From assembly GCF_900096585.1 (NCBI RefSeq), contig NZ_FMYH01000001.1, positions 930,001 through 994,000 on the forward strand: a stretch of DNA of 64,000 nt, written 5' to 3'. A program made the position numbers and the translations under genes. Source of the DNA: Sanguibacter gelidistatuariae. Lineage in GTDB: Bacteria; Actinomycetota; Actinomycetes; Actinomycetales; Cellulomonadaceae. The notes beneath the pieces were generated by a model. The model was not told the DNA's origin. It ran no database searches and worked only from the letters and a program-made list of their open reading frames with translations. Positions 31,783 to 49,518 of this stretch are shown in pieces. Positions within the stretch are counted from its first letter, which is position 1, and each line of letters begins with the position of its first letter.

Positions 31783-32643
31783 TCATGCGGACAGGGAACG
31801 CAGGTACGCCATCGACATGCGCACGTCTGCGACGGGGCCTTCGTCGTCGGGTGCGGTCGCCAGGATCGTATCTTGTTCGAGCACGTACCAGCCGTCGAAG
31901 CCGGCCGCCTCGAGCGCGTGCACGATGCGCGGCAGGTCGACGTCGCCCTGGCCGAGGGGGACGTAGATCCCGGCGCGCACTGCGTCGGTGTAGGTCAGCT
32001 CCCCGGAGCGGACCTTCGCGGCCAGGTCGGCGCGCACGTCTTTGGCGTGGACGTGGTTGATGCGGGCCGCCCAGGTCTCGGCGAGCTGCGCCGGGTCGCT
32101 GCCGCCGATGAGGAGGTGGCCGGTGTCCAGGCACAGCTGGATGGTGCTGCCGCGCAAGACCTTGTCGACGTCGTCCGCCGTCTCGACCATCGTGCCCACG
32201 TGCGGGTGGAGGGTCGCGCGGATGCCGCGATCTGCCGCGATCTGCTGCAGCCGGTCGAGGTTGGCCAGCAGCGTGGTCCAGCCGGCTGCGTCGAGCTCGG
32301 GGCGGGTGTCGTAGCCGTCGGTGCCGGTCGCGGCGGCCAGGACGAGCACGTCGCCGCCGGCGGCCTCGAAGCTGTCCAGCTCGAGCTCCACGGCGGGGGC
32401 GGGATCGTGGGCGGGATCGTGCAGCAGCACGGGCACGAACGCTCCGACGGCCTTGAGACCGAACGGCGCGATCGCGGCCGCGCGCTCGGCGGGGGCGATC
32501 GGCAGCCAGCCCTGGGGACCGAACTCGGTCGCGGTCAGGCCGAGGTCGGCCATCTCGCGCAGGACGCGGTCGGGGGCCAGCTGGAAGCCCCAACCGGGTA
32601 CCTCGCACACGCCCCAGCTGATGGGGGCTCCGGCGATGTTCAT
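31783..32643 (-). CDS. iolE: Inosose dehydratase/isomerase-type TIM-barrel protein
   Basis: A 286-residue xylose-isomerase-like barrel, last gene of the iol operon. APISWGVCEVPGWGFQL opens the barrel; metal ligands are suggested by TEFGPQGW, TLHPHVGTMVE, CLDTGHLLIGG, NHVHAKDV and YVLEQD. By position it should dehydrate 2-keto-myo-inositol to the trihydroxycyclohexanedione that IolD opens; the IolI isomerase role is an alternative because the two families look alike. AAGGAG lies before the ATG. Confidence 0.78.
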   Translation of the reverse strand: MNIAGAPISWGVCEVPGWGFQLAPDRVLREMADLGLTATEFGPQGWLPIAPAERAAAIAPFGLKAVGAFVPVLLHDPAHDPAPAVELELDSFEAAGGDVLVLAAATGTDGYDTRPELDAAGWTTLLANLDRLQQIAADRGIRATLHPHVGTMVETADDVDKVLRGSTIQLCLDTGHLLIGGSDPAQLAETWAARINHVHAKDVRADLAAKVRSGELTYTDAVRAGIYVPLGQGDVDLPRIVHALEAAGFDGWYVLEQDTILATAPDDEGPVADVRMSMAYLRSLSA

Positions 32644-32690
32644 ATAACTAGCTCCTTCGGTGCGTGATGACGTGGAGGGACGTGAGCGGG

Positions 32691-33680
32691 TCAGGCGACC
32701 TTGACCGGCTGGCCGGTGTTCGCCGAGAGGGTTGCGGCGTCGGCCAGAGCGAGGGCTTCGCGGCCGTCCGCCAACGACGGGCTGGGCGCCACGCCGTCGC
32801 GGATCGACGTCACGAAGTGCTCGAGCTCGGCCGCGTACGCCTTGGTGTACCGCTCGAGGAAGAAGTCGAGGTAGCGACCGCGGGCCCCCGACGTCGTCGC
32901 GCTGTGGTGCACCACTGCCGTGGCCGTGTGGTTGAGCGCCTCGAGCGAGCCGAGCGGCCCGAAGGCCTCCAGGCGCTGGTCGTAGCCGGTCGCGCAGTGC
33001 CGCGAGTTGATGATCGTCGCAACGGCGCCGCTCGCCGCGGTGAGGGTGAGCACCGCGGCGTCCCAGTCGCCCGCTGCTTCGATGTCGGCGTCGAGGTGCT
33101 GTCCGACGGCGTGGACCTGGGTGATGTCCCCGAGCATGAACCGCGCCATGTCGAGGTCGTGGATCGTCATGTCGCGGAAGATCCCTCCCGACCCGGCCAC
33201 GTAGGAGGCGGGCGGCGCCGCCGGGTCCCGGCTGATGATCGTGAGCTGCTCCACGGGGCCGATCACGCCGTCGCGGACGTGAGCGTGGATCTCGGCGAAC
33301 CCGGGGTCGAACCGCCGGTTGAAGCCGACCATGATGCGGTGCGCCTGGTCGCCGATGGCGGCCAGGCAGGCGTCCACCCGAGCCAGGTCGAGGTCCACGG
33401 GCTTCTCGACCAGCACAGCCTTGCCCGCGGCGACGGCCGCCACGATCTGATCCACGTGGAAGCGGGTGGGGGAGCCGACGATGACGGCGTCCACGCGGTG
33501 GTCCGTGAAGACGTCGTCCACGACGCCGGTCGCGCGCCCCCCGGAGGCTGCCGCCAACCGCTGCGCAGACGCGAGGTCGGGGTCGGCCACGAGGACAAGC
33601 TCGCAGTCGGGGTGCTGCGCGATGGACGCGGCGTGGACGGCGCCGATGCGCCCGGCACCGATCACGGCAAATCTGAGCAT
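32691..33680 (-). CDS. iolG: myo-Inositol 2-dehydrogenase (Gfo/Idh/MocA family)
   Basis: NAD-dependent enzyme that starts inositol breakdown by making 2-keto-myo-inositol. 329 residues. Rossmann motif FAVIGAGRIGAVHAAS, EK motif in AVLVEKPVDL, then GFNRRFDPGF, and GGIFRDMTIHDLDMARFML with the catalytic Asp-x3-His pair typical of inositol dehydrogenases. The ATG at 33680 has GGAG nine bases upstream; METHI start at 33695 lacks one. It is distinct from the tandem pair at 22147-24254, which lack the FRDxxIHDxD motif. Confidence 0.9.
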   Translation of the reverse strand: MLRFAVIGAGRIGAVHAASIAQHPDCELVLVADPDLASAQRLAAASGGRATGVVDDVFTDHRVDAVIVGSPTRFHVDQIVAAVAAGKAVLVEKPVDLDLARVDACLAAIGDQAHRIMVGFNRRFDPGFAEIHAHVRDGVIGPVEQLTIISRDPAAPPASYVAGSGGIFRDMTIHDLDMARFMLGDITQVHAVGQHLDADIEAAGDWDAAVLTLTAASGAVATIINSRHCATGYDQRLEAFGPLGSLEALNHTATAVVHHSATTSGARGRYLDFFLERYTKAYAAELEHFVTSIRDGVAPSPSLADGREALALADAATLSANTGQPVKVA

Positions 33681-33729
33681 GATGTGTGTCTCCATTGACA
33701 GGAAGGAAGGAAGGGCGGGAGAGGGAGGG

Positions 33730-35235
33730 CTACTTCTGGGAGTCCGCAGAGAAGTGGAAGGACGCCGCGGTGCGTTCGGCCTCGCGGTGCGGCCAGCGCT
33801 GCGTGGTGACCTTGCCGCGGGTGTAGAACCGCACGCCATCGGGGCCGTACACGTGGCTCTCGCCGAACAGCGAGTCCTTCCAGCCGCCGAAGGAGTGCCA
33901 GGCCACGGGCACGGGGATCGGCACGTTCACGCCGACCATGCCGACCTTCACGCTGCGGCGGAAGGTGCGGGCCGCCTCGCCGGAGGCGGTGAAGATCGCG
34001 GTGCCGTTGCCGTAGGGGTTGGCGTTGATGACCTCGATCGCCTCGGCCAGGTCGCGGACGCGCACGATGTCCAGGACCGGTCCGAAGACCTCTTCCACAT
34101 ACACGGTGTGCTCGGCATTGACGTGGTCCACGATCGTGGGACCGACGAAGAAGCCGCCCTCGTAGCCCGGCACGCTGATCCCGCGGCCGTCCACCACGAC
34201 GGTCGCGCCCTCGGCCTCAGCCGAGGCGATGAGGCCCTCGATGCGCTCCTTGGCCGCGGCCGTGATGACCGGGCCCATGTCGGCGCCGTCCTGGTCACCA
34301 GCCGTGACCTTCACGGCGCGCGCCTTGGCGGCGAGCTTGGCCACGAGGATGTCGGCGACGGAGTCTTCCACGACCGCGACGGACAGCGACATGCACCGCT
34401 CGCCGGCGGCGCCGAATGCGGCCGCGGTGAGGTGGTCGACGGCGTCGTCCAGGTCCGCATCGGCCAGCACCACGCCGTGGTTCTTGGCCCCACCGAGCGC
34501 CTGGACCCGCTTGCCGCGGGCGGACGCAGTCGCGTGGATGTACCGGGCGATCGGGGTGGAGCCGACGAAGGAGACGGCGGCGACGTCGGGGTGGTGGAGG
34601 AGGGCGTCCACGACCGTCTTGTCGCCCTGGACCACGCTGAACACGCCGTCGGGCAGGCCGGCCTGCTTCCACAGGTCGGCGAGGAAGAGCGCGGCGCTCG
34701 GGTCCCGCTCGGAGGGCTTGAGGATGAACGCGTTGCCGCACGCGATGGCCATGGGCGCCATCCACAGCGGCACCATGACGGGGAAGTTGAACGGCGTGAT
34801 CCCGGCGACGACGCCGAGCGGCTCCCGCACAGAGAACACGTCGATGCCGGTCGCGGCCTGCTCGGAGTACTCGCCCTTGAGGAGCTGGGCGAGGCCGCAC
34901 GCGAACTCCACGACCTCCAGGCCACGCCCGATCTCGCCCTTGGCGTCAGAGACCACCTTGCCGTGCTCCCTGCTGACCAGCAGGGCCAGCTCGTGGGTGT
35001 TGGCCACTAGCAGCTCACGGAAGCGGAAGAGCACGGTCGAACGCTTGGACAGGGAGAACTGTGACCACGTCGCGAAGGCGGCGGCTGCGGAGGCCACGGC
35101 CACGTCGACGTCGGCGACCGTCCCCAGCTCGAGCTGGGCGATCACCTCGCCGGTGGCAGGGTTGTGCACGGGCTGGGTGGCGTCGCCGGAGGCGGTGCGG
35201 GTGGCGCCGTCGATCCAGTGGCTGATGGTGGTCAC
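33730..35235 (-). CDS. iolA: CoA-acylating methylmalonate-semialdehyde dehydrogenase
   Basis: Converts malonate semialdehyde (the last inositol intermediate) to acetyl-CoA with NAD and CoA. 501 residues, normal for the family. Catalytic Cys281 in GERCMSLS; PFNFPVMVP, GSTPIARYI and KNHGVVLADA match IolA/MmsA; the glutamate general base of ordinary aldehyde dehydrogenases is absent from the expected LGGAK position, as in CoA-acylating members. GTG start with AAGGAG upstream. Confidence 0.93.
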   Translation of the reverse strand: MTTISHWIDGATRTASGDATQPVHNPATGEVIAQLELGTVADVDVAVASAAAAFATWSQFSLSKRSTVLFRFRELLVANTHELALLVSREHGKVVSDAKGEIGRGLEVVEFACGLAQLLKGEYSEQAATGIDVFSVREPLGVVAGITPFNFPVMVPLWMAPMAIACGNAFILKPSERDPSAALFLADLWKQAGLPDGVFSVVQGDKTVVDALLHHPDVAAVSFVGSTPIARYIHATASARGKRVQALGGAKNHGVVLADADLDDAVDHLTAAAFGAAGERCMSLSVAVVEDSVADILVAKLAAKARAVKVTAGDQDGADMGPVITAAAKERIEGLIASAEAEGATVVVDGRGISVPGYEGGFFVGPTIVDHVNAEHTVYVEEVFGPVLDIVRVRDLAEAIEVINANPYGNGTAIFTASGEAARTFRRSVKVGMVGVNVPIPVPVAWHSFGGWKDSLFGESHVYGPDGVRFYTRGKVTTQRWPHREAERTAASFHFSADSQK

Positions 35236-35283
35236 GGATGCTCCTTGGTGAGGGTGGCAGACAGAGGAAGGTGAGGGGACGGC

Positions 35284-37209
35284 CTACAGGTAGCGGCGCT
35301 GCGCGGTGCGCGCCTGGTCGTACTCCGTGCGTGCGGCCTGCGTGCTGGCGAGCGTGGACACCTCGGACACGGGCACGTCCCACCACGCCGACCCTGGGGG
35401 GTTGGGGCCCTCGAGGTCGGTCTCGATGTGGATGACGGTCGTGACGGGGGAGGCAGCCGCGTCGGCGTACGCAGCGCGGAAGTCCTCGATCGTGCGGGCC
35501 CGCAGCACGCGGGCCCCGAAGGACGCGGCGTTCGCGGCCAGGTCCACCGCGGGGACAGCGCCGTCGTGCGCGCGCTGGGCCCCGCGCAGGCGGAACTTGG
35601 TGCCGAAGCGCTGCGAGCCGCGGGACTCCGACAGTGCCCCGATCGAGGCGTACCCGTGGTTGTCCAGCAGCACCACGATGACCTTCATGCCCTCGGACAC
35701 GATCGTCGCGAGCTCCTGGGGGAGCATCTGGTACGTGCCGTCGCCCACGATCGCGACGACCTCGGACTCGGGCCGGGCGAGCTTGGCGCCCAGCGCCGCA
35801 GGGATCTCGTACCCCATGCAGGAGAAGCCGTACTCCAGGTGGTACTGGACCGGGCTGGAGGCCCGCCACAGTGCCTGCAGGTCGCCCGGCATGGAGCCGG
35901 CGGCGTTGATGAGGATGTCCTCGGGCGCCATGAGGTCGTTCAGGGCCCCGAACACCTCGGTCTGGGCCGGCAGCGGGCCGTGCCCGCGGTGGTAGCACTC
36001 GTCGGTGACGCGCTGCCAGGCTGCCACGCGCTCGGTGACCTCCCCGCGGTAGGCCTCGTCCGTGCGCCAGCCGGCCAGTGCCTGGGTGAGCGCCTCCAGG
36101 CCGTGGCGCGCGTCGGCCACGACCATCTCGGCCCCGTGCTTGGCGGCGTCGAAGGCAGCGACGTTGATGTTGACGAAGCGGACCGACGGATCGGCGAAGA
36201 CGGTGCGGCTCGCCGTCGTGAAGTCGGTGTAGCGGGTGCCGATCCCGATGACGACGTCGGCGCTCGCGGCCAGCGCGTTGGCGGCGTCGTTTCCGGTGGA
36301 TCCCACGCCGCCGACGGCGAGCGGGTGGTCCCAGCTGATCGCGCCCTTGCCCGCCTGGGTGTCCGCGACGGGGATCCCGGTGGCCGACGCGAAGGCGCGC
36401 AGCGCCTCGGCGGCCTCGGAGTAGACGACTCCGCCGCCCGCGACGACGAGCGGCCGCTTGGCGGATCGGATCACGTCGACGGCGCGCGCCAGGGCGGCGG
36501 GCTCGGGAACCGGACGTGCCACGTGCCACGTGCGGTCGCGGAAGAACTCGAGCGGCCAGTCGTAGGCCTGCGCCTGCACGTCCTGCGGCAGCGAGAGCGT
36601 GACGGCTCCGGTCTCGGCCGGGTCGGTCAGCACGCGCATAGCCTGCGGCGCGCTCGCGAGCAGCATCTCGGGGCGCCAGATCCGGTCGAAGTAGCGGGAC
36701 ACGGGCCGGAAGGCGTCGTTCACGCTGACGTCGGGTCCGCCCGGGTGCTCCAGCTGCTGCAGGACCGGGTCGGGGAAGCGGGTGGCGAACACGTCCGAGG
36801 GCAGCAGCAGCACGGGGATGCGGTCGACGGTGGCCAGCGCCGCACCCGTGATCATGTTCGTCGACCCGGGGCCGATCGACGCGGTGCAGGCGAAGGTCTG
36901 CAGGCGGTTCATCGTGCGGGCGTAGGCGACGGCGGCGTGCACCATTCCCTGCTCGTTGCGGGCCATGAAGTAGGGCAGCTCGTCGGGTCCGTGCTCGTCG
37001 CCGTCGAAGCCGGCGTCGACCGCCTCGACATGGGCCTGCAGCAGGCCCTGCCCGAGGCCGGCCACGTTGCCGTGCCCGAAGATCCCGAAGGCCCCGGCGA
37101 AGAGAGGCCGGGTCGTGCCGTCACGCTCGCTCCGCTGGTGGGCGAGGAACCGGACGAGGGCCTGGCCGACCGTGAGGCGGACCGTCGTTGACTCGGTGGG
37201 CGTGCTCAT
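35284..37209 (-). CDS. iolD: 3D-(3,5/4)-trihydroxycyclohexane-1,2-dione hydrolase
   Basis: Thiamine-diphosphate enzyme that opens the cyclohexane ring to 5-deoxy-glucuronate. 641 residues. N-terminal TPP-binding domain with the catalytic Glu region VHAAVAYARTMNR; central domain with GGGVVYSEAAEALR; C-terminal TPP motif GDGTYQMLPQELATI through LDNHGYASIG. The ATG is preceded by GGAG. It overlaps the end of iolB by four bases (ATGA). Confidence 0.95.
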   Translation of the reverse strand: MSTPTESTTVRLTVGQALVRFLAHQRSERDGTTRPLFAGAFGIFGHGNVAGLGQGLLQAHVEAVDAGFDGDEHGPDELPYFMARNEQGMVHAAVAYARTMNRLQTFACTASIGPGSTNMITGAALATVDRIPVLLLPSDVFATRFPDPVLQQLEHPGGPDVSVNDAFRPVSRYFDRIWRPEMLLASAPQAMRVLTDPAETGAVTLSLPQDVQAQAYDWPLEFFRDRTWHVARPVPEPAALARAVDVIRSAKRPLVVAGGGVVYSEAAEALRAFASATGIPVADTQAGKGAISWDHPLAVGGVGSTGNDAANALAASADVVIGIGTRYTDFTTASRTVFADPSVRFVNINVAAFDAAKHGAEMVVADARHGLEALTQALAGWRTDEAYRGEVTERVAAWQRVTDECYHRGHGPLPAQTEVFGALNDLMAPEDILINAAGSMPGDLQALWRASSPVQYHLEYGFSCMGYEIPAALGAKLARPESEVVAIVGDGTYQMLPQELATIVSEGMKVIVVLLDNHGYASIGALSESRGSQRFGTKFRLRGAQRAHDGAVPAVDLAANAASFGARVLRARTIEDFRAAYADAAASPVTTVIHIETDLEGPNPPGSAWWDVPVSEVSTLASTQAARTEYDQARTAQRRYL

Positions 37210-38141
37210 GGCTGTTCCTTCTCCTTCGAGGGGGTGCCGTCGTTGTCGGGGCGGGTGGCCAGCGGCAGCCGCGGGTCGAGCTCCTGGTGCTCCCAGGTCG
37301 CGCGCACCCAGTGCAGGTGCGGGTCGTCAGTCGAGAGCCAGGTGCCGTCCGGTGCCGGACCCGCCATCACGTTGAGGTAGTAGAGGTCGTAGCCCGGGGG
37401 TGCGGTGCACGGGCCGTGGAAGCCGTGCGGCACGAGCGCGACGTCGCCGGTGCGGACCTCGGCCAGCACGTCGATCGGGCGCTCGGGGGTGCCGTAGGTG
37501 CGGTGGTATCCGACGCCAGGGCCGTCCGGCCCGTCCGCGACCTCGAAGTAGTAGATCTCCTCGAGGACCCGCTCGTCACCGGAGTGCACGTCGTGCTTGT
37601 GGGGCGGGTACGAGGACCAGTTGCCGCCCGGCGTGACGACCTCGCACACGAGCAGGTGGTCGATTGCGACGTCGGTGCCGAGCGTGTAGTTGTTGACCTG
37701 CCGGCTCGCGGCGCCCGCGCCCCGCAGGTCCACGCGTACGTCCTGGGCCGCGACGACCCGCAGCGGGAGCGTCCGGGTGGCCCGCGCGGTCGCGAGGGCG
37801 ATCCTGCTTCCCGACGCCGCACCCTTCGGCGCTGTGACGGTCACCGTGGAGCCGAGCGGGAGGTAGGCGAAGTCGGTCGGTCCGGAGAAGACGTCGGGGC
37901 GACCGGTCAGCGTGAGGCGGGTCGCGCCGTCGGGCAGGTCGACGAGGAGCTCGGCGCCGCCGCGCAGCGGGATGAGGGCGGCCTCGTCGCGCTCGAGGTG
38001 CCACGTGAGGGACGCGCCGGGGGCGAGGGTGACCACGCGCAGTCCGCTGAAGTCCCAGCCCGCGCTCTCGGGTGAGACGTCGGTGACGACCGGGCCGGAG
38101 GTCGCGGCGCGGACGACATACCGCTCGGTGTCCGTGCTCAT
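37206..38141 (-). CDS. iolB: 5-deoxy-glucuronate isomerase
   Basis: Cupin-fold isomerase that turns 5-deoxy-glucuronate into 2-deoxy-5-keto-gluconate. 311 residues. The metal-binding cupin is seen in PPHKHDVHS, EEIYYFEV and the late HGFHGPCTAPPGYDLYYLN. AAGGAG eight bases before the ATG. It lies 28 bases after the barrel aldolase gene and overlaps iolD. Confidence 0.94.
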   Translation of the reverse strand: MSTDTERYVVRAATSGPVVTDVSPESAGWDFSGLRVVTLAPGASLTWHLERDEAALIPLRGGAELLVDLPDGATRLTLTGRPDVFSGPTDFAYLPLGSTVTVTAPKGAASGSRIALATARATRTLPLRVVAAQDVRVDLRGAGAASRQVNNYTLGTDVAIDHLLVCEVVTPGGNWSSYPPHKHDVHSGDERVLEEIYYFEVADGPDGPGVGYHRTYGTPERPIDVLAEVRTGDVALVPHGFHGPCTAPPGYDLYYLNVMAGPAPDGTWLSTDDPHLHWVRATWEHQELDPRLPLATRPDNDGTPSKEKEQP

Positions 38142-38169
38142 CGGGGTGCTCCTTGCGGGTCGTTGCGGG

Positions 38170-39069
38170 TCACAGCAGGCTGACTGCGGCGTCGACGGCC
38201 GCCGTGACGTCGTCGTCCGGCGGGTAGAGCAGGGATCGTCCGATCACGAGGCCCTTCACTCCGGGCAGGCGCAGGGCCGACTCCCAGCCGGACAGAGCCG
38301 CGTCCTGGTCCTCGCTGACCTCGCCGCCCAGGATCAGGGCGGGCAGCGTCGAGGCCGCCATCACCCGCTCCATCTGCGCCACGACCGGCAGCTTGAGCCA
38401 GGTGTAGGCGGAGGTGCTGGCCAGGCCGGAGGCGATCGCGACCGAGCGGATCACGGCGTCGGTCGTGAGCTGGTTGACGAGGGCGCCGTCGACGCGTCGG
38501 GCGAGGAAGGGCTCGACCATGGCGATCAGGTGGTGGCTGGCCAGGTCTCCGACGGCTCGTGCGCACGCCTCGAGGGTGAGCGCCGAGGCTGGGTCGTCCA
38601 GGCAGATCCGCAGGAGCATCTTGCCGCCGTCGAGGCCGGCGCTCGCGATCCCAGCCGGGTCGTAGCCGGTGAAGCGGTCGTCGATCTCGAAGGTGGATCC
38701 CGCGAGGCCGCCGCGGTTCATCGACCCGAACACGACCTTCCCGTCCAGGGCGCCGCGCAGCGTGAGGTCCTCGATCATGTCCGCCGTGCCGAGGAAGCCG
38801 TGTACCCCCGGACGGGCCAGGGCGTCCTGCGTGCGGTCGAGGAGGTCGCGCCGGTCGCCCATCGCCACGGGCCGTCCTCCGATCGCCAGGGCGCCGCGTG
38901 CCGGGTGGTCAGCGGCAATGATCAACAACTTGGCCCCAGCCGGGATGCCGGTGAAGGCCGGGCGCGCGGTGAGGGCGTCGGTGATCGCGGCGGGGCGGGA
39001 GAACCGCAGGTCGGTCAGGTCGTCGTAGCGGGTGCCATCCGCTGCGGACTCCTCGGACGGGGAGGTCAT
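38170..39069 (-). CDS. Aldolase-like (beta/alpha)8-barrel protein of iol clusters (Cgl0158 type)
   Basis: A 299-residue class I aldolase-like barrel. Recognisable parts: AGAKLLIIAADHPARGALAIGG at strand 1, GFLGTADMIEDL, DGKVVFGSMNRGGLAGS, DGGKMLLRIC, AMVEPFLAR, LKLPVV (candidate Schiff-base Lys) and ILGGEVSEDQ. By position between iolC and iolB it most likely splits 2-deoxy-5-keto-gluconate 6-phosphate to dihydroxyacetone phosphate and malonate semialdehyde, the job of IolJ in Bacillus; no IolJ is present. The ATG at 39069 shares a base with the iolC stop (TGATG) and follows GGAGGGG; GTG at 39072 is also possible. Confidence 0.75.
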   Translation of the reverse strand: MTSPSEESAADGTRYDDLTDLRFSRPAAITDALTARPAFTGIPAGAKLLIIAADHPARGALAIGGRPVAMGDRRDLLDRTQDALARPGVHGFLGTADMIEDLTLRGALDGKVVFGSMNRGGLAGSTFEIDDRFTGYDPAGIASAGLDGGKMLLRICLDDPASALTLEACARAVGDLASHHLIAMVEPFLARRVDGALVNQLTTDAVIRSVAIASGLASTSAYTWLKLPVVAQMERVMAASTLPALILGGEVSEDQDAALSGWESALRLPGVKGLVIGRSLLYPPDDDVTAAVDAAVSLL

Positions 39070-40049
39070 CACATCCCCTCCGGGACATGGCCGAGGGCCA
39101 GCACGCGGTCGATCTCACCGCGACTGGGCATCGCCGTCGAGCACTCGAGGCGCGACGCGACGATCGCACCCGCCGCGCTCGCGAACGTGATGGTGCGGTG
39201 CAGGTCCCACCCGGAGAGCAGGCCGTGGCACAGCGCGCCGCCGAAGGCGTCGCCGGCCCCGAGCCCGTTGACGACCACGCACGGCGTGGCCGCGACCTCG
39301 ACGCGCTCGTCGGCCGTGAGCGCCAGCACACCCCGGGGACCTTGCTTGACGATTGCGATCTCGACCCCGGACTCCAGCAGTGCGCTCGCCGCACGCTCGG
39401 GATCGCTCTCCCCGACGGCAACCTCGCACTCCTGGAGGTTTCCGACGGCGACGCTCACCTGGGGCAGGACCGCCTGGACCGCGGCGGCGGCGTCCTCGGG
39501 GCGGTCCCAGAAGCAGGCCCGGTAGTCGAGGTCGAGGATGGTGGTGGCTCCGGCGCGGGCGTCGAGGGCGGCCTGGTGCGCCGCCAGGCTCGGCTCGAGG
39601 GACAGGCCGGTCGCGGTGACCCAGAGGATCCGCGCCTGCTCGATCGCCTGGAGGTCGAGGTCTTCGACCCGCAGGCGCAGTTCGGGGGAGGGGGTTGCGC
39701 GGTAGAAGTAGAGAGGGAAGTCGTCGGGCGGGAAGAGCTCGCAGAAGGCGACGGACGTGGCGACGCCGGGCAGCGTGAGGATGCCGGCGACGTCGACGCC
39801 CAACCGGGTCAGCTCGCGGCGGACGAACGAGCCGAAGGGGTCCGCTCCGACGGCCGTGACGACTCTCGCGCGGGACCCGAGCCGGGAGGCCGCGACGGCC
39901 ACGTTCGTGGGGCTCCCACCGAGGAACTTGCCAAAGGTCTCGACGTCCTCGATGCCGACGCCGGTCTGCAGCGGGTAGATGTCCACGCTGCTGCGGCCGA
40001 TCGTCACGACGTCGAACGCATCGCCCGACGGGTGTGCCGTTAGCATCAT
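39069..40049 (-). CDS. iolC: 5-dehydro-2-deoxygluconokinase
   Basis: PfkB-family kinase of 326 residues that phosphorylates 2-deoxy-5-keto-gluconate. N-terminal signature GGSPTNVAVAASRLGSRA and C-terminal VVNGLGAGDAFGGALCHGL with the catalytic Asp. First gene of the operon. ATGATG start with AGGAG eight bases upstream. A promoter lies at 40087-40116. Confidence 0.93.
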   Translation of the reverse strand: MMLTAHPSGDAFDVVTIGRSSVDIYPLQTGVGIEDVETFGKFLGGSPTNVAVAASRLGSRARVVTAVGADPFGSFVRRELTRLGVDVAGILTLPGVATSVAFCELFPPDDFPLYFYRATPSPELRLRVEDLDLQAIEQARILWVTATGLSLEPSLAAHQAALDARAGATTILDLDYRACFWDRPEDAAAAVQAVLPQVSVAVGNLQECEVAVGESDPERAASALLESGVEIAIVKQGPRGVLALTADERVEVAATPCVVVNGLGAGDAFGGALCHGLLSGWDLHRTITFASAAGAIVASRLECSTAMPSRGEIDRVLALGHVPEGM

Positions 40050-40086
40050 GCCGACTCCTATGTCTGGCCCTGTGGTGAGTGGCTCC

Positions 40087-40116
40087 AGTTAACCCTATGT
40101 CCTGACATATGTTCAA
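40087..40116 (-). promoter_or_regulatory. Promoter of the iol operon
   Basis: On the minus strand TTGAAC (-35; 40111-40116), an 18-base spacer and TTAACT (-10; 40087-40092). The spacer contains the complete TATGTC/GACATA palindrome, so a bound repressor would block polymerase. Start of iolC is 38 bases downstream of the -10. Confidence 0.6.
40096..40109. promoter_or_regulatory. Palindromic operator for the GntR regulator
   Basis: TATGTC-CT-GACATA is a perfect inverted repeat placed between -35 and -10 of the iol promoter. Its core TGTCCTGACA agrees with the Corynebacterium IolR motif as I remember it (KGWCHTRACA). A further half-site TATGTC is at 40059-40064. Confidence 0.7.
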
Positions 40117-40182
40117 CCTGCAATTCTGACCTCGGGTGCCCTATGATGCAGGCAGTTCTACTCTGAGCCGAGGAGTATCAGC

Positions 40183-40920
40183 GTGGCCGAACCGTTGCGT
40201 ATCGATCTGGACCGCTCGAGTCCCGTCCCTCTCTATCACCAGATCGCGACGGCCATCGAGTCTCGCATCGCGGGTGGTGAGCTCATTTCTGGCGCCTTCC
40301 TGGAGAACGAGATCGCTCTGGCGGCCCGGCTCGGCATCTCGCGCCCGACGGCGCGGCGGGCGCTGCAGGAGCTGGTCGACAAGGGCCGGCTCGTGCGCAA
40401 GCGCGGTGTCGGCACGCAGGTGGCCCCCGAGCGCATCCATCGTTCTGTGGAGCTCACCTCCCTGCAGGCCGACCTGGAGCGCGCCGGGCGTCGCCCGACC
40501 ACCAAGATGCTCTCCTACGAGACTGTCCCGGCCGACCGGGACGTCGCCGCCGCGCTCGAGGTGGCCGAGGGGGAGGAGGTCGTCTGCATCCGTCGGCTGC
40601 GGTACGCCGAGGAGGAGCCGCTCGCGCTCATGACGAACTACCTGACCCTCGCGCTCGCGCCCAGTGAGTCGGAGCTCGTGGCGCACGGCCTCTACGACGC
40701 GCTCCGTGCTCGTGGGGTGCAGCCCAGGGTGGCGCGGCAGCGCATCGGAGCGCGTGTCGCGACGGCCCAGGAGGCGCGCTCCCTCGATGAGGTTGCCCGC
40801 GCTGCGCTCCTGACGATGGAGCGGACGGCCTATGACGATGCCGGTCGGGTCATCGAGTTCGGTCGGCACATCTACCGGGCGTCGCGCTACATGTTCGACA
40901 CCACGCTCTTCTCCCACTGA
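40183..40920 (+). CDS. iolR: GntR-family regulator of the iol operon (HutC/UTRA type)
   Basis: A 245-residue repressor. Winged helix at residues 15-75: PLYHQIATAIESRIAGGELI, then RLGISRPTARRALQELVDKG and the wing VRKRGVGTQV. The effector-binding UTRA domain follows (residues 90-240). It is divergent from the iol operon across 133 bases that hold the palindrome. Derepression by an inositol intermediate is expected. GTG at 40183 with AGGAG seven bases upstream; TACTCT (40159-40164) may be its -10. The symbol is by analogy of place, family and operator. Confidence 0.85.
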   Translation: MAEPLRIDLDRSSPVPLYHQIATAIESRIAGGELISGAFLENEIALAARLGISRPTARRALQELVDKGRLVRKRGVGTQVAPERIHRSVELTSLQADLERAGRRPTTKMLSYETVPADRDVAAALEVAEGEEVVCIRRLRYAEEEPLALMTNYLTLALAPSESELVAHGLYDALRARGVQPRVARQRIGARVATAQEARSLDEVARAALLTMERTAYDDAGRVIEFGRHIYRASRYMFDTTLFSH

Positions 40921-43160: not shown

Positions 43161-43540
43161 CGCTGCCAGGAGGAGGCCGCTCGTGCCGTAGATCTTCGTG
43201 CGGCTTGTGATGACAGCTCCCCGTGACGCGCGACCTCTGGACCCGTCCAGGCTACGTCAGTTGAGCGCAGGACGGCCCGGCCGTTCATGCCCAGACACAG
43301 ATCTTAGACGGGCGGGGTGGTCTGCCGGAGTCGTGCACAGGGTGGGCATCAGGGTGAGGCGGCGGGTGAGGTGTGTGCCGCATCACGGCCGATTCGTAAT
43401 CACCTCTGGGTCACCCAGGAATGCCGTCATCGCGGGAGCGGTGAGCTGTCTCATCAATAGGTGACTGGACCAAGGGCGCCGGTGATTGCTTCCGGCTCCC
43501 TGACCAGTCGATCCGTGGATCGAAGGGATGGGGTGGCGTG
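43161..43540. other. 380-bp gap without a gene
   Basis: No credible coding frame. It should hold the promoters of the MFS gene and of the surface-protein gene at 43541. A 13-bp palindrome CTGGGTCACCCAG lies at 43406-43418 and GACTGG/CCAGTC arms occur at 43463-43468 and 43504-43509. GC content is slightly lower than the neighbours. No riboswitch-like fold is evident. Confidence 0.5.
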
Positions 43541-45112
43541 ATGCATAAGGTAGGAAGTCGAATGTTCGGTGCAGCTCGGTCTGCGGGGCGGTTCGTTCCG
43601 GAGGGGCACGAGGTGCGCAGGGTGATCGCCGGTACGGCGGCCGTCGTGCTGGCGATGGCGTGGGTCGTCGTCGGGCTCGGCCAGGCTGAGGCCGCACCGG
43701 GTGCAGTCTTGCCCGTCGCCGCCTTCGAAGCCCCTCGCTGCCCCGGCGAGACGGACCTGGACCCTACGGACCCGACTGCTCACCAGGGGCTGGACAACCT
43801 GCTCTCCGTGAGCGGCGCCCGCCTGGATGCCTACGACGCCGGTGCCGTGGTGCCGTTGTACGACGCGTCTGGAGAGACCACAGACGCGCCGTTGTGCGGC
43901 ACACGCTATGTCGCTGGTGCGGGCGGGACCGCGGGCGCCGTCTCGCAGTGGATGTTCTGTACCTCCTGGGCGGACGACCTGTGCGGTGACGTCAACGAGG
44001 ACGGCCAGGCGACCGACAGCGACGGCAACCCGATCGACCCCATGGATAGCCTTGCCAGCAACCCTGACCTGGCCGGCACTGATGCCGAACGACTCATCGC
44101 TTATCTCATCGAGAACGGTCACACCTACGAGGGAAGTGGAGCTGGGTACCAGTTCGGTGGAATCGCCTACGCCAACGCAGACGAATCGACCAATACCCGC
44201 AGGGCGCTCCAGGTGTTGGTGTGGTGCATCAGCGACCCGACCACCATCCCGGACCCTAACTTCACGGCGACCTGCGCGCTCAACTTCCCGGACGGAGAGC
44301 AGGCGCGCCTGCTGGCGCTCATCCCTGCGACCCCGGTTGCCGACCTGAGCTTCGACGTCTCCGGAGGGACCGTCAACGTTGGGGAGACCGCGCGGTTCAC
44401 CATGAGGACCAACGTCTTCGATTCGCCGATCATGCTCACGGCCTCTCCGCTGGGCGCCTTCTCGGTCTGTTCGGGCGACGCGACCATCACGGACTCGGTC
44501 CTCACCGTGGCGCCACCTGCCGATGGCTCGTCGGACGTGCTCGTCGAGCTGTGCGTGACTGCGACCGAGGCCGGTCCTGCAACCGTGACAGCGACCACCT
44601 CGCCGCCGTCCGTGCGCCGCATGTCCTGGAACCGTTCGGTCGCCTCGCCGCAGGCACGGCCCTGCCAGATCTACGCGGCGTTCGCGGACTATCCCGTCAC
44701 GCCGACGACGTCGTCCGCGGACGCCACCTTCGTCGCGGTTCCGGAGCCGACCCCTGACCCGACGCCGACGTCTGACCCGACGCCGACGTCTGACCCGACG
44801 CCGACGTCTGACCCGACGCCGACGCCGGAGCCGACGCCGACCGACCCTCCGACCCCGACGCCCAACCCCTCGGCGAACCCCTCGCCCACTCACAGCCCGA
44901 GTGCCGTTGTCTCAGTGCTGCCGCTCACACCGGCCAAGGTGGCCGGTGTGGCCAGCGCTTTCGGGAGCCGCTCGCGCGTGACGGCACCGCACCCCGCATT
45001 GGCGCACACGGGCGCGGACGAGGGGTCGATGCTGCTGCTGGCAGGAGCATCGGGCCTCGCCGGTGTCGTGCTGGTCTTCGCCAGCAGGCTCCGTCGTCGA
45101 GGACAGCGGTAG
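43541..45112 (+). CDS. LAHTG-anchored surface protein with probable thioester domain
   Basis: A 523-residue secreted wall protein. N-terminal signal peptide (about residues 25-52, ending QAEAA). Residues 85-235 look like a thioester domain: QWMFCTSW with Cys140, YLIENGHTY, and RRALQVLVWCISDP with Gln224, the Cys-Gln pair that would form the reactive bond. A beta-rich domain follows, then a Pro/Thr linker with four DPTPTS repeats, and a sorting signal at the end: LAHTG (487-491), hydrophobic helix and SRLRRRGQR. LAxTG is used by class E sortases. It probably attaches covalently to a surface. It lies upstream of the fused sigma factor. ATG preceded by a G-rich stretch, start moderately sure. 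Confidence 0.75.
   Translation: MHKVGSRMFGAARSAGRFVPEGHEVRRVIAGTAAVVLAMAWVVVGLGQAEAAPGAVLPVAAFEAPRCPGETDLDPTDPTAHQGLDNLLSVSGARLDAYDAGAVVPLYDASGETTDAPLCGTRYVAGAGGTAGAVSQWMFCTSWADDLCGDVNEDGQATDSDGNPIDPMDSLASNPDLAGTDAERLIAYLIENGHTYEGSGAGYQFGGIAYANADESTNTRRALQVLVWCISDPTTIPDPNFTATCALNFPDGEQARLLALIPATPVADLSFDVSGGTVNVGETARFTMRTNVFDSPIMLTASPLGAFSVCSGDATITDSVLTVAPPADGSSDVLVELCVTATEAGPATVTATTSPPSVRRMSWNRSVASPQARPCQIYAAFADYPVTPTTSSADATFVAVPEPTPDPTPTSDPTPTSDPTPTSDPTPTPEPTPTDPPTPTPNPSANPSPTHSPSAVVSVLPLTPAKVAGVASAFGSRSRVTAPHPALAHTGADEGSMLLLAGASGLAGVVLVFASRLRRRGQR
44755..44826 (+). repeat. 18-bp tandem repeat coding for DPTPTS
   Basis: Four head-to-tail copies of tgacccgacgccgacgtc (the last with two changes) inside the wall-spanning linker. 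Being in frame and of 18 bases, copy number can change without breaking the gene, altering linker length. Confidence 0.9.
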
Positions 45113-45207
45113 AGCCCTCGGGAGGCCGGGATTTTTCACCCGGTTGAATCTCTCAAGTTCGCGTCATGTTTGGCATCAAGTCATGTCTTCATTGGTAGTG
45201 GCCCCTT

Positions 45208-45244
45208 GTTCTCACCCGCAGCCACCGAGGTCGCGGGTGAGAAC
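45208..45244. promoter_or_regulatory. 12-bp inverted repeat before the fused sigma factor
   Basis: GTTCTCACCCGC (45208-45219) and GCGGGTGAGAAC (45233-45244) are exact inverses with a 13-base loop. It lies 95 bases after the surface-protein stop and 47 before the next start, so it is either the terminator of the first gene or an operator of the second. The rest of the 179-base gap includes an AT-richer piece at 45130-45190 with no clear promoter. Confidence 0.55.
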
Positions 45245-45291: not shown

Positions 45292-47430
45292 ATGTCAGAC
45301 AGCAATGCGCGCACCCCAGGATGGACCCCGCACGACGCGGGGTCTGCTCCCATGCGCAGCCATGCCGTGAGCCTGGCAGCGGGAGAGAACGACCTGGGTG
45401 ACGAGGGCCTGATCGAGGAGAGTCGGGCTGGATCGACGGCCGCCTTCGAGGAGCTGTGGCGACGTCACTCTGCGGCAGGCCGGCGCGTGGCTGCCCGGTT
45501 CACCCAGGCGAGCGACCCCGACGACCTGGTCCAGGAGGCGTATCTGCGGATCTACTCCGCGATCCAGAAGGGCAAGGGGCCGGACGCGGCATTCCGCCCG
45601 TACCTCTACCAGACCATCAGAAATATCGCGATCACATGGGCAGGGAAGCCGGCCGAGCAGTCGATCACCGTCCTGGCTGAACTCTCCGACGGAACGGACA
45701 TGTCGGGGACGGTCCTGGAGAACTCGGTCACGGCCAAGGCGTTCCGCAACCTCCCAGAACGCTGGCAGTCGGTCCTGTGGTACTCCGAGGTCGAAGGTCT
45801 TGAGCCCGCTGAGATCGCCCCGCTCCTGGGGATCAAGGCCAGCGCAGTCTCGGCGCTCGCCTACCGCGCCCGAGAAGGACTGCGCAAGGAGTGGCTCCAG
45901 GTCCACGTCAACTCGGCGGCGGTCCCCCCCGAGTGCACCTGGGCCGCGGAGCGGATGGGTGATTTCAACCGTGGCGGGCTGCGCGGCGCCGCGAAGTCGC
46001 GGTTCGAGGAGCACGTCCGTGGCTGCTCGCGATGCATGGTGCTCGTCGACGAGGTCGACGAGGTGTCGCGCAAGCTCGGCCTGATCATGATCCCGCTCGT
46101 GGCGGGTATCCCGTGGGCGGCGTTCGCTGCGGCCCGTGACGCCGCGTTGGTCCAGCCTGTCGCCGACGCGACATCGATGACTGACCTGCGGGACGGTCCC
46201 GTTGACGGCTCGGGGGCATCGTCCGCAGCCCAGGCGAGGAATCTGTGGACCCGGCCGGGCGCCGTTGCCGTCGCGGTGGCGGCATCGGTCGCACTGTTCG
46301 CGATGGTCGGCGCGGCCGCGCTGTTCGGCCCGTGGTCCGGTTCGTCGCCGAGCGCGTCGCCGTCGGTAGTCCCCAGCACCGACCCCACCGACTCGACACC
46401 GGCCCCCACGGATGCTCCGACGATGAGCCCGAGCACGACGCCGACCGACCTCACGGACCCCGTCATTGTTCCCGAGGTGCCCGTGATCGCCCCGACAGTC
46501 GAGCCGACGCTCCCGCGCCCGCAGCCCTCGAAGGAACCCGTACCGGACGTGACGGCCCCCGTCGTCCCCGCGCCGATCCCGGACCCTTCGACGGAGCCGA
46601 CCACGGGGCCGACGACTGAGCCCACAACGGACCCGACCACTGGGCCGACAACGGAGCCGACGACCGATCCCACGACCGAGCCGACGGACCCGCCCGGCCC
46701 GAGCGTCCCTGTGCTCAATGGCCCGTCGACCGCAGCAGAGCGCACCTTTCTCCCCAAGATGTTCGGAACCGCCGATGCGGGAACGACGGTCGTTCTTGTG
46801 GACGCCAAGGGGCAGATGATCGCCCAGGCGATGGCCGATGACGAGGGAGTCTGGTCGGCCATGATCGGCGTCGACGGCGCACCCGCAGTAGGAGCGGGCA
46901 GGTGGCCCGACGTCCTGTCGGCCGAGAGCCTCGCAGGCAGCCTGACCATCACGGCCCATGCCGTCGACGGCGAAGGGCGGACCTCGGCGTCGAGTACCGC
47001 GGTCGGTCCGTACACCTTCGCCGAAAGTGCCGAGATCACCTCTCCGGCAAAGGGGGACCAGGTCAGGTTCCGGGGGAACCTGCCCGAGAACGCGCTCGCC
47101 GGCGCCATTGACGTCAAGATCTCCGGGACGAAGGATGCTTACGTGCGTGTCTTCGTCGACGGGAAGACGTCCGGCGCGCTGCACAAGCTGGACACCGACC
47201 CGATCCTGCGGCAGAGCGGGACACTGACCCTGGGCGATCACACGATCGGAATCCAGTACGTCAAGACTGACGACGAGACCACCGTCCTCGAGGCGGGCCC
47301 GGTCTTCACCCACAGCTTCACCATCATCGCTACGCCGGGCGTACCGACGCCCGGCGGTGCCACGCCTCCGGGCGACGACATCCCGGTGTTGCTCGCAACA
47401 CAAGACCGTTACCCAACCGTCATCGTCTGA
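45292..47430 (+). CDS. ECF sigma factor fused to zinc-finger anti-sigma, membrane and extracellular Ig-like domains
   Basis: A 712-residue fusion. Region 2 at about 45-115 (FEELWRRHSAAGRRVAARF; DPDDLVQEAYLRIY), region 4 at about 145-200 (LPERWQSVLWYSEVEGLEP; LLGIKASAVSALAYRAREGL). Then a zinc-binding anti-sigma motif H-x3-C-x2-C (His241, Cys245, Cys248 in EEHVRGCSRC). A hydrophobic stretch near 262-282 and a membrane helix at about 323-345 follow, then a Pro/Thr linker with TEPTT/DPTTGP repeats, and two beta-rich Ig-like domains to the end. Sigma, its inhibitor and an outside sensor are thus one chain; release would need proteolysis or a conformational change. Groups of such fusions exist in Actinobacteria (ECF52-like, from memory). 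No clear ribosome site at 45292; ATG at 45352 is an alternative. Confidence 0.85.
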   Translation: MSDSNARTPGWTPHDAGSAPMRSHAVSLAAGENDLGDEGLIEESRAGSTAAFEELWRRHSAAGRRVAARFTQASDPDDLVQEAYLRIYSAIQKGKGPDAAFRPYLYQTIRNIAITWAGKPAEQSITVLAELSDGTDMSGTVLENSVTAKAFRNLPERWQSVLWYSEVEGLEPAEIAPLLGIKASAVSALAYRAREGLRKEWLQVHVNSAAVPPECTWAAERMGDFNRGGLRGAAKSRFEEHVRGCSRCMVLVDEVDEVSRKLGLIMIPLVAGIPWAAFAAARDAALVQPVADATSMTDLRDGPVDGSGASSAAQARNLWTRPGAVAVAVAASVALFAMVGAAALFGPWSGSSPSASPSVVPSTDPTDSTPAPTDAPTMSPSTTPTDLTDPVIVPEVPVIAPTVEPTLPRPQPSKEPVPDVTAPVVPAPIPDPSTEPTTGPTTEPTTDPTTGPTTEPTTDPTTEPTDPPGPSVPVLNGPSTAAERTFLPKMFGTADAGTTVVLVDAKGQMIAQAMADDEGVWSAMIGVDGAPAVGAGRWPDVLSAESLAGSLTITAHAVDGEGRTSASSTAVGPYTFAESAEITSPAKGDQVRFRGNLPENALAGAIDVKISGTKDAYVRVFVDGKTSGALHKLDTDPILRQSGTLTLGDHTIGIQYVKTDDETTVLEAGPVFTHSFTIIATPGVPTPGGATPPGDDIPVLLATQDRYPTVIV

Positions 47431-47533: not shown

Positions 47534-48118
47534 GTGACGCTGACCGGCCCGACCGGCCCGAGCGGTCCCCCCAGCGGTCCCGTACGAGACGATGCGTGGT
47601 TCGACGCGCTCTTCCGTGATCACGCCCGCAGCGTCTTCCGCTTCGTCGTGCGCCGCGCCGCCCGGGACGACGCCGACGACCTCACCGCCGAGGTGTTCAC
47701 GACCGCGTGGCGCCGGCGCGAGGACGTGCCCGAGGGCTTCGAGCTGGCCTGGCTCTACCGCACCGCCGGGTTCACGGTTGCTAACCACCACCGCAAAACC
47801 CGCCCGGTCCTCGTCGAGACCCTGCCCGAGGCGGGCGACCCGACCTCCCCCGAGCTTCTCGTCCTCGCGGACCTCGAGGTCCGCGAGGCCTTCGCCCGGC
47901 TGGGTGAGCGGGACCAGCAGATCCTGCTGCTCGCCGCCTGGGAGGGCCTCCAGGGGGAGGCTCTCGCGAGCGTCCTGGAGATCTCCCGTTCGGGGGCCGA
48001 CGCCGCGCTCTCGCGGGCACGCAGCCGCCTGCGCCAGGCGTGGGACGACTCTGCGGCTGCCACGGTGCCCGGAGAGCCCGCTGCAAGATCGACCGACGCC
48101 ACGACACAGACCAGGTAG
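47534..48118 (+). CDS. ECF-type RNA polymerase sigma factor
   Basis: A 194-residue sigma factor. Region 2: WFDALFRDHARSVFRFVVRR and DDADDLTAEVFTTAWRRRED; region 4: LGERDQQILLLAAWEGLQGEA, helix-turn-helix LASVLEISRSGADAALSRARSRL. The GTG at 47534 begins VTLTGPTGP; an ATG at 47521 is out of frame. It is followed after 35 bases by a single-pass membrane protein, as expected for a sigma/anti-sigma operon. The C-terminal 25 residues are Ala/Pro/Thr-rich. Confidence 0.88.
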   Translation: MTLTGPTGPSGPPSGPVRDDAWFDALFRDHARSVFRFVVRRAARDDADDLTAEVFTTAWRRREDVPEGFELAWLYRTAGFTVANHHRKTRPVLVETLPEAGDPTSPELLVLADLEVREAFARLGERDQQILLLAAWEGLQGEALASVLEISRSGADAALSRARSRLRQAWDDSAAATVPGEPAARSTDATTQTR

Positions 48119-48153: not shown

Positions 48154-49518
48154 ATGAACACCAGCAACAACGACCCTCGCGACGAGCGGCTGTCAGACCC
48201 CGCCTACGAACGCCTGAGCGCGGGAGACCCCGCCGCAACCGCTGAACCGGATGTCGCGGTCATCAAGGCGAAGGTCGATTCCGCGACCGCTGGGGTCCTG
48301 GCGGGCGCCCCCGAGGTCGTGACAGAGGCAGCCGTCGTCGACCTCGCCGCCCAGCGGGCCAGACGACGTCCCGCTCGCTGGCTGCAGATCGCCGCGGCCG
48401 CCGTCGGCGTCGTCGCGGTGGGTGGCGGGGCTTTCGTCGCCGGACAGCACTCCTCGAACGCTCCGATCAGCGCCGAGGTGCCCAGCGCGCTGATCGGCCC
48501 CAGCCGCGCGGACGCCGTGGCACCCGGGTCAGCATCCGCCGGTCAAGCAGGCGCGGGCAGCTTCTCGATGGGCGCCCAGGACGGCGTCGGGGAGAGCAAG
48601 ATGGCCGCCGGGGCGACGGACATGGTCGGCTCGAGCTTCGGCCGGACGGTCTTCACGTCCTCGGGGCTCTCGGATGCCACCGGCAGCGGTCAGACCTGGG
48701 GATACGACCCGGCGTCGGTCTTCTCCGCCGAGACCGCGGCCCGTCTGGCCGAGGCACTCGGTGTCAGCGGCGACCCGACCCCGAACTACGGCTCGTGGCA
48801 CGTCGGATCCCTCGACTGGACCTCAGCCGCGCTCGACCTCAGCTCCGACGGCACGACGAGCTTCTACTACTCCGATCCCGCGTACACCCCGTGGGCGGAG
48901 AACTCCTCGGCGGCCCCGGCCACGCCCGAGGCGGCCACCGCCGCCCTGACGGACGTCATGACCGCGCTCGGGATCGACCCCGCCGGCTTCACGATCACGG
49001 TCGACGCCGCCCAGGACCCGCACTCCACCACGGTCTCGGCGGCCCCGGTGCAGGGAGGCGGCGGGTGGACCGGCATGTGGTCCGCTACTGTCACCGCCGA
49101 CGGTCTATACAGCCTGAACGGCTCCCTCGCCCCGCTCGTCGATCTGGGGATCTATGACGTGGTCAGCCCCCAGACGGCCGTCGAGCGTCTCGGTGACGCG
49201 CGTTTCGGCGCGTCCCAGGACTTCTCCGCCTACAACGGGACCGACATCGGTGTTGCTCGGGGCATGACCGACGTCATGCCCATCCCGGACGACCCGGCGG
49301 CGATCCCGACCCTGCCCGGCGTGCCTGCCCCCGGGTCCAGCTTCGCGTGGCCGGTCTCGAACGTGACGATCACCGCCGCGACCCTGGGCGCGAGCACCTA
49401 CTACCAGCCGGACGGTTCCGTCGCGCTGCTGCCCACGTACACGCTGACCGGATCGGACGGCAGCGCGTGGACGGTCATCGCCCTGGCCGATGCGCACCTG
49501 GACTTCGCCGCGAGCTGA
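48154..49518 (+). CDS. Membrane-anchored protein, likely regulator of the preceding sigma factor
   Basis: Function not recognised. 454 residues: about 80 cytoplasmic residues ending in QRARRRPARW, one membrane helix (LQIAAAAVGVVAVGGGAFVAG), then a Ser/Gly/Ala-rich stretch and a large extracellular domain with many Trp and Tyr (GSWHVGSLDW, FYYSDPAYTPW, YYQPDGSVALLPTYTLTGSDG), which looks like a beta-sheet domain. No zinc-finger motif in the cytoplasmic part. GGAGGT (48144-48149) gives a firm start. The layout parallels the operon at 5670-7858, though the outside domains differ. Confidence 0.7.
   Translation: MNTSNNDPRDERLSDPAYERLSAGDPAATAEPDVAVIKAKVDSATAGVLAGAPEVVTEAAVVDLAAQRARRRPARWLQIAAAAVGVVAVGGGAFVAGQHSSNAPISAEVPSALIGPSRADAVAPGSASAGQAGAGSFSMGAQDGVGESKMAAGATDMVGSSFGRTVFTSSGLSDATGSGQTWGYDPASVFSAETAARLAEALGVSGDPTPNYGSWHVGSLDWTSAALDLSSDGTTSFYYSDPAYTPWAENSSAAPATPEAATAALTDVMTALGIDPAGFTITVDAAQDPHSTTVSAAPVQGGGGWTGMWSATVTADGLYSLNGSLAPLVDLGIYDVVSPQTAVERLGDARFGASQDFSAYNGTDIGVARGMTDVMPIPDDPAAIPTLPGVPAPGSSFAWPVSNVTITAATLGASTYYQPDGSVALLPTYTLTGSDGSAWTVIALADAHLDFAAS

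Follow-up and report, generated by a model that had tools for sequence, protein, structure and literature searches.

The gene at positions 45292-47430 of the 64,000-nucleotide stretch of Sanguibacter gelidistatuariae DNA analysed here (the window; contig NZ_FMYH01000001.1, positions 930,001 to 994,000) encodes a sigma factor that shares one chain with a zinc anti-sigma domain, a hydrophobic region and a predicted Ig-like ectodomain. This arrangement raises the question of how such a sigma factor becomes active and which genes it then serves. Our preferred reading, which we hold with a probability of roughly 0.6, is that the product is an autoinhibited, membrane-tethered ECF sigma factor that is released by a signal at its Ig-like domains and that drives expression of its own gene and of LAHTG-type surface-protein genes. 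Its sigma and anti-sigma parts are located as follows.

45292..47430, plus strand: 712-aa protein in which an ECF sigma factor is fused to a zinc anti-sigma domain, a membrane segment and an Ig-like ectodomain, one uninterrupted open reading frame
45454..45639, plus strand: sigma region 2, residues 55-116 (Pfam PF04542 Sigma70_r2, 37.8 bits)
45739..45876, plus strand: sigma region 4, residues 150-195 (Pfam PF08281 Sigma70_r4_2, 28.9 bits)
45934..46035, plus strand: zinc anti-sigma motif C215-x25-H241-x3-C245-x2-C248 (Pfam zf-HC2, residues 215-248, 20.7 bits)

The matches to PF04542 and PF08281 both exceed their Pfam cut-offs, which places the protein among the ECF (group IV) sigma factors. TIGR02937 scores 70.8 bits relative to a cut-off of 42.9, the nearest relatives of solved structure are ECF sigma factors, and no group-specific NCBIfam model exceeds its cut-off for this protein. 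The zf-HC2 score falls below the cut-off of 22.2, which several homologues exceed, and an alignment of 16 homologues shows that the zinc ligands Cys215, His241, Cys245 and Cys248 are invariant, as expected for an anti-sigma domain of the ZAS/zf-HC2 type. The first-pass annotation of this DNA had read both ECF sigma regions and an H-x3-C-x2-C anti-sigma motif from a single chain; the sigma regions are confirmed by Pfam and by the uninterrupted frame, and the three motif residues are precisely those that it gave, to which we add Cys215 as a fourth ligand upstream. The homologues keep the same domain order in one frame, with no break between the sigma and membrane parts of the kind that had been named beforehand as an argument against a fused sensor. 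Most of the short homologues among the retrieved sequences are truncated at the end of a contig or represent separate relatives of smaller size.

Fused sigma homologues occur in 39 of the 41 genomes of the family (E < 1e-30) and fall into two size classes, one of about 520-860 aa to which the 712-aa protein belongs, and one of 1200-1800 aa that forms its own branch in the tree. Most family genomes carry a second fused sigma factor of this longer type (in S. gelidistatuariae, for example, G000:C17:40937-41851, L034, with DUF11/CARDB domains), and the long type often adjoins a divergent gene of about 255 aa without assigned function. Wider relatives were found by searching with the alignment of 16 homologues, a single-protein query having given none. 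They come from Cellulosimicrobium, Microbacterium, Salinibacterium, Leifsonia, Puerhibacterium, Nocardioides, Brachybacterium and Arthrobacter, and further fused sigma factors lie on plasmids of Arthrobacter, Paenarthrobacter and Streptomyces.

The C-terminal half of the protein had been described as a Pro/Thr linker followed by Ig-like domains, a description with which both the translation and the structure prediction agree.

46339..46698, plus strand: Pro/Thr-rich linker, residues about 350-469 (from the translation)
46699..47337, plus strand: two predicted Ig/FnIII-like beta-sandwich domains, residues 470-682, putative sensor (AlphaFold2 and structure matches)

AlphaFold2, given 16 homologous C-terminal regions, predicts two all-beta domains in this region of about 210 residues, which is followed by a short tail (pLDDT 84.4, pTM 0.79). 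Searches of the predicted structure with Foldseek and VIA-align return Ig/FnIII-like domains of the bacterial surface proteins Bap, SiiE and CbhA, with single-domain Z values of 8-10; these matches of a model show a common beta-sandwich fold and say nothing on function. At the sequence level there is a weak Pfam Big_6 match at residues 491-525, no Pfam model for a carbohydrate-binding module exceeds its cut-off in the fused protein, and neither a PDB sequence search with the ectodomain nor a PHROGs search gave anything useful. The module is common to about 18 fused sigma proteins from several genera, two of them encoded on a plasmid of Arthrobacter alpinus, and it is the conserved ectodomain of one fused-sigma subfamily, which is newly described here. 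Other relatives carry lectin-type domains in place of the Ig-like ectodomain, LamG in Leifsonia (L114:3965-6142) and ricin B in Streptomyces (L195:5929-7593), with the ricin-type relatives located on Streptomyces plasmids. Such swaps suggest modular sensors on one sigma chassis.

Directly upstream is the gene that the first-pass annotation had called an LAHTG surface protein, an assignment that holds up in full.

43538..45112, plus strand: sortase-anchored (LAHTG) surface protein with signal peptide, P/T stalk and LAHTG signal, possibly with a divergent thioester domain; the start may be the ATG at 43541

Its C-terminus has a complete sortase signal consisting of LAHTG, a hydrophobic stretch and RLRRR, and TIGR01167 scores 14.8 bits, just below the cut-off of 15.9. 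Sorting motifs are also present in an orthologue in a sister species (L026; 61%, LARTG) and in an unlinked paralogue in the same genome (G000:C12, L177:7502-9145; 47%, LAATG), which identifies these proteins as sortase-anchored. Gene order in the sister species is surface protein, fused sigma, second ECF sigma and membrane protein. The same order is seen in the window, where an ordinary second ECF sigma factor (47534-48118) and a one-helix membrane protein (48154-49518) lie downstream; the latter has no family match and is a possible anti-sigma factor. Elsewhere in the window, a minus-strand run of carbohydrate-catabolism genes at 31783-40920 lies beside a GntR-type regulator and looks like a myo-inositol (iol) operon. 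As to the nature of the surface protein, thioester adhesins have a [YFL]C motif and a TQxxPhiW-type helix motif (PMC4450167), and F/Y-C141 and LQxLVW (224-229) are conserved in the window protein, its orthologue and its paralogue. The Pfam TED model, whose cut-off is 22, scores 14.3 bits in the orthologue alone and has no match in the paralogue, a TED search across the genus gave no match in either the genus or the control and hence carries no weight, a PDB sequence search gave nothing useful, and an AlphaFold2 model from two sequences has a pLDDT of 41. With one TED score of 14.3 bits and a model of this quality, the weak resemblance to a thioester adhesin is treated as a lead.

The regions upstream of the fused sigma gene and of its neighbour contain the following candidate elements.

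45135..45168, plus strand: TTCACCCG-N19-CGTCATG, predicted promoter of ECF type in front of the fused sigma gene (the six genus genomes contain 4 matches, the reversed control none)
43399..43431, plus strand: ATCACCTC-N18-CGTCATC, candidate promoter in front of the surface-protein gene (weak, 11/14 relative to the sigma-gene promoter)
45208..45244, plus strand: perfect inverted repeat of 12 bp, GTTCTCACCCGC / GCGGGTGAGAAC, downstream of the sigma promoter and ahead of the start codon (fold z = -4.1)

CGTCATG is found upstream of the fused gene in 7 of the 8 closest relatives, relative to CGTCAT in 6% of shuffles, and TTCACCCG precedes it in three genus members. The strict pattern TTCACCCG-N16-20-CGTYAT has just the four matches in the six genus genomes (about 23 Mb), located at three fused sigma genes (G000, G003 and G005) and at the unlinked surface-protein paralogue; there are none in G001 and G004, both of which lack a short fusion and carry the long type alone. 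When a motif built from the sigma genes alone was used to score 101 upstream regions, the next best were those of the paralogue and of the sister species' surface-protein gene, at 13/14 each, a score reached by 1 of 1000 shuffles for the paralogue and by 0 of 1000 for the sister gene. The 11/14 site at the window's own surface-protein gene was reached by 78 of 1000 shuffles and alone is not significant. A relaxed pattern occurs at six places in the genome, two of which lie inside called genes and one of which reads as coding by sequence; the remaining three, the sole non-coding matches, are at the sigma gene, its surface-protein neighbour and the unlinked paralogue. Note that the relaxed letters, like the Y of the strict pattern, were picked after the sites were seen, and therefore the independent weight lies with the 13/14 matches and the rarity of the pattern. 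A looser pattern, TCACC-N18-21-CGTCAT, was dropped since it had 36 genome matches, many of which looked codon-driven. Together these sequence matches suggest a predicted regulon, new here, that consists of the fused sigma factor itself and the LAHTG-type surface-protein family, and the earlier proposal that the neighbour may be a target gains support from recurrence of the sigma-gene element in front of the sister orthologue and the paralogue. The hairpin at 45208-45244 may act in attenuation, may terminate the upstream gene without the usual tail, or may be bound by a regulator; at the equivalent place the sister species also has one, which differs in sequence (z = -4.35).

The association with surface-protein genes also extends beyond this locus. 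In a chromosomal sample, with genes called by a simple GC-frame script, sortase-anchored genes lie directly beside short fusions with an odds ratio of 10.9 relative to elsewhere (p = 0.0007, or p = 0.004 with orthologues collapsed). Within the genus, a 639-aa sigma fusion (L029:12640-14559) has an ectodomain, DUF7507, that is 49-54% identical to repeats of the LPTTG protein encoded just upstream, and its C-terminus consists of LSTTG followed by a hydrophobic stretch and a basic tail. Because of this C-terminal sortase-like signal, that sigma factor is possibly tied covalently to the cell wall. In L030, the genes for a fused sigma factor, a pilin-D1/SpaA protein and an MPETG protein are arranged in one row. 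A mobilizable plasmid of A. alpinus (L192:9062-26346) carries two fused sigma factors, each beside SpaA, an SpaH/EbpB pilin and a class C sortase; Paenarthrobacter OM7 has another fused sigma factor adjoining sortase-anchored or pilus genes; and in Streptomyces NBC_00334 an LAETG protein follows the fused sigma factor. That related fusions recur next to sortase-anchored proteins or to pilus clusters with a class C sortase, as seen in Sanguibacter, Arthrobacter, Paenarthrobacter and Streptomyces, is new here, and a search of the open-access literature (subscription papers were outside its scope) gave no report of ECF sigma factors linked with sortase and pilin. The linkage recurs without being universal: outside the genus, a surface-protein neighbour is absent for most homologues of the fused sigma factor. 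Long fusions (1200-1800 aa) were hardly seen to share it. No shared promoter was found in the L029 and L030 clusters, and on the A. alpinus plasmid CGTCAT flanks the divergent pilin/sigma region on either side, only weakly above chance.

Given that most relatives stand alone, the protein could instead be a sensor of the ECF52/53 type that responds generally to envelope stress or glycans, with a broad or unrelated regulon and a surface-protein neighbour that is incidental. The varied ectodomains of the relatives, including the lectin-like LamG and ricin-type domains, fit such a role, as does the broad control of development and antibiotics by SCO4117 of Streptomyces coelicolor (PMC5826349). We nevertheless consider this rather unlikely, as the genome contains very few copies of the promoter element, whose non-coding matches are confined to the sigma gene and two surface-protein genes, and as the linkage to sortase genes is about tenfold over background at the significance given above.

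The overall design of fused sigma, anti-sigma, membrane and outer domain is of a known actinobacterial kind, as the first-pass annotation had rightly said. Actinobacterial ECF48, ECF52 and ECF53 fusions have been published, of which SCO4117 is the best studied (PMC5826349, PMC8999054), and the protein described here matches their architecture by domain order, with sigma factor, zinc finger, membrane helix and extension in one chain. Specifically, the ECF52 protein SCO4117 also has an ECF sigma domain, zf-HC2, a membrane segment, a Pro-rich linker and an outer domain, and it is suspected of positive autoregulation, the same as proposed here (PMC5826349). In contrast, its outer domain is a carbohydrate-binding module and not two Ig-like domains, which sets our protein outside ECF52 proper; its promoter motif is CSGYN-17bp-SRHA rather than TTCACCCG-N16-20-CGTYAT; and its reported regulon covers development and secondary metabolism, with no surface-protein neighbour reported (PMC5826349). 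By eye, the SCO4117 motif does not fit the promoters found here. In members of ECF48 and ECF53 the sigma factor is likewise joined to an anti-sigma domain of the zinc-finger type and to one or two helices, and proteolytic activation is expected; they differ in that an Ig-like ectodomain and a surface-protein regulon are not described for them (PMC8999054). IutY of Pseudomonas putida (ECF243) also combines a sigma factor and a membrane anti-sigma factor in one chain, and differs in being proteobacterial, in serving siderophore cell-surface signalling and in having no comparable Ig-like ectodomain described (PMC8999054). Finally, SigI/RsgI of Clostridium thermocellum resembles our proposal in that a membrane anti-sigma factor with an exported sensing part controls genes for exported proteins, and differs in consisting of two separate proteins, in its sigma family and in its polysaccharide ligands (PMC10766802).

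The architecture of the protein and the examples of IutY and SCO4117 lead us to infer a topology, a mode of inhibition, a cleavage and a signal as follows. The sigma domain at the N-terminus and the zinc anti-sigma domain next to it would be cytoplasmic, one helix would cross the membrane, and the Pro/Thr stalk would hold both Ig-like domains out in the cell wall. The signal received there would most likely come from a wall-anchored surface protein, through its presence, state of assembly or engagement, or from the wall itself, and it would lead to cleavage in or near the membrane by regulated intramembrane proteolysis, as in IutY, and to loosening of the anti-sigma domain. The freed sigma factor would then take RNA polymerase to a small set of promoters of the strict pattern, which would be used at its own gene, at the LAHTG-type neighbour and at the unlinked paralogue. 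Proteolytic release has also been proposed for SCO4117 (PMC5826349, PMC8999054), and a truncated IutY sigma is active (PMC8999054). It is improbable, in our estimate, that the sigma factor instead remains tethered and recruits polymerase at the membrane by a conformational switch. The review lists proteolysis of the actinobacterial members only as expected, which leaves room for such a switch; however, IutY, the only fused sigma/anti-sigma protein whose activation mechanism has been tested according to that review, is processed by Prc and RseP (PMC8999054), and a membrane-bound holoenzyme that reaches two unlinked loci is less economical.

The proposed topology places the Ig-like domains outside the cell. 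A membrane-spanning sequence had been noted earlier; a hydrophobic region is indeed present, and it comprises two segments rather than one.

46078..46134, plus strand: first hydrophobic segment, residues about 263-281, probably not membrane-spanning (short, charge-interrupted in several orthologues)
46267..46329, plus strand: predicted transmembrane helix, residues about 326-346 (hydropathy 2.4)

The second segment is preceded by two Arg residues and has no Lys or Arg in the next 30 residues, a charge pattern that favours N-in/C-out. A single pass is likelier than two because the first segment is short or charge-broken in several orthologues (L026, L029, L030, L062 and L093). In addition, the L029 homologue ends in a sorting signal and its C-terminus should therefore be outside, so that charge pattern, linker and this homologue all favour an outer C-terminus. 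That both segments cross the membrane and leave the Ig-like part in the cytoplasm is very improbable, for although the first segment of the window protein has a hydropathy of 1.99 across 19 residues and the review permits one to two helices in actinobacterial fusions (PMC8999054), the broken first segment of the orthologues, the placement of positive charge before and not after the second segment, the presence of a Pro/Thr linker and Bap/SiiE-like domains that are typical of exported parts, and the sortase signal of the homologue all speak against it.

Actinobacterial fusions of this kind are present in nearly every genome of the family, yet the review knows of no signal and of almost no targets for them (PMC8999054). 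The specific, small predicted regulon of this member, together with its compact two-domain sensor, makes the sensing and control of surface proteins by a one-chain sigma factor testable. More tentatively, and with less confidence than we have in the reading of this locus, actinobacteria may devote a class of sigma factors, tethered to the membrane and inhibited within their own chain, to the regulation of sortase-dependent surface structures, with an ectodomain that monitors display or engagement and a sigma factor that is released to adjust production. Under such dedicated regulation, the sigma ectodomain would be built from the same kinds of domain as the displayed adhesin or pilin, and one such sigma factor carries a sorting signal. 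The repeated placement of these genes by class-C-sortase pilus clusters, on plasmids as well, hints at a general actinobacterial control of sortase-built structures.
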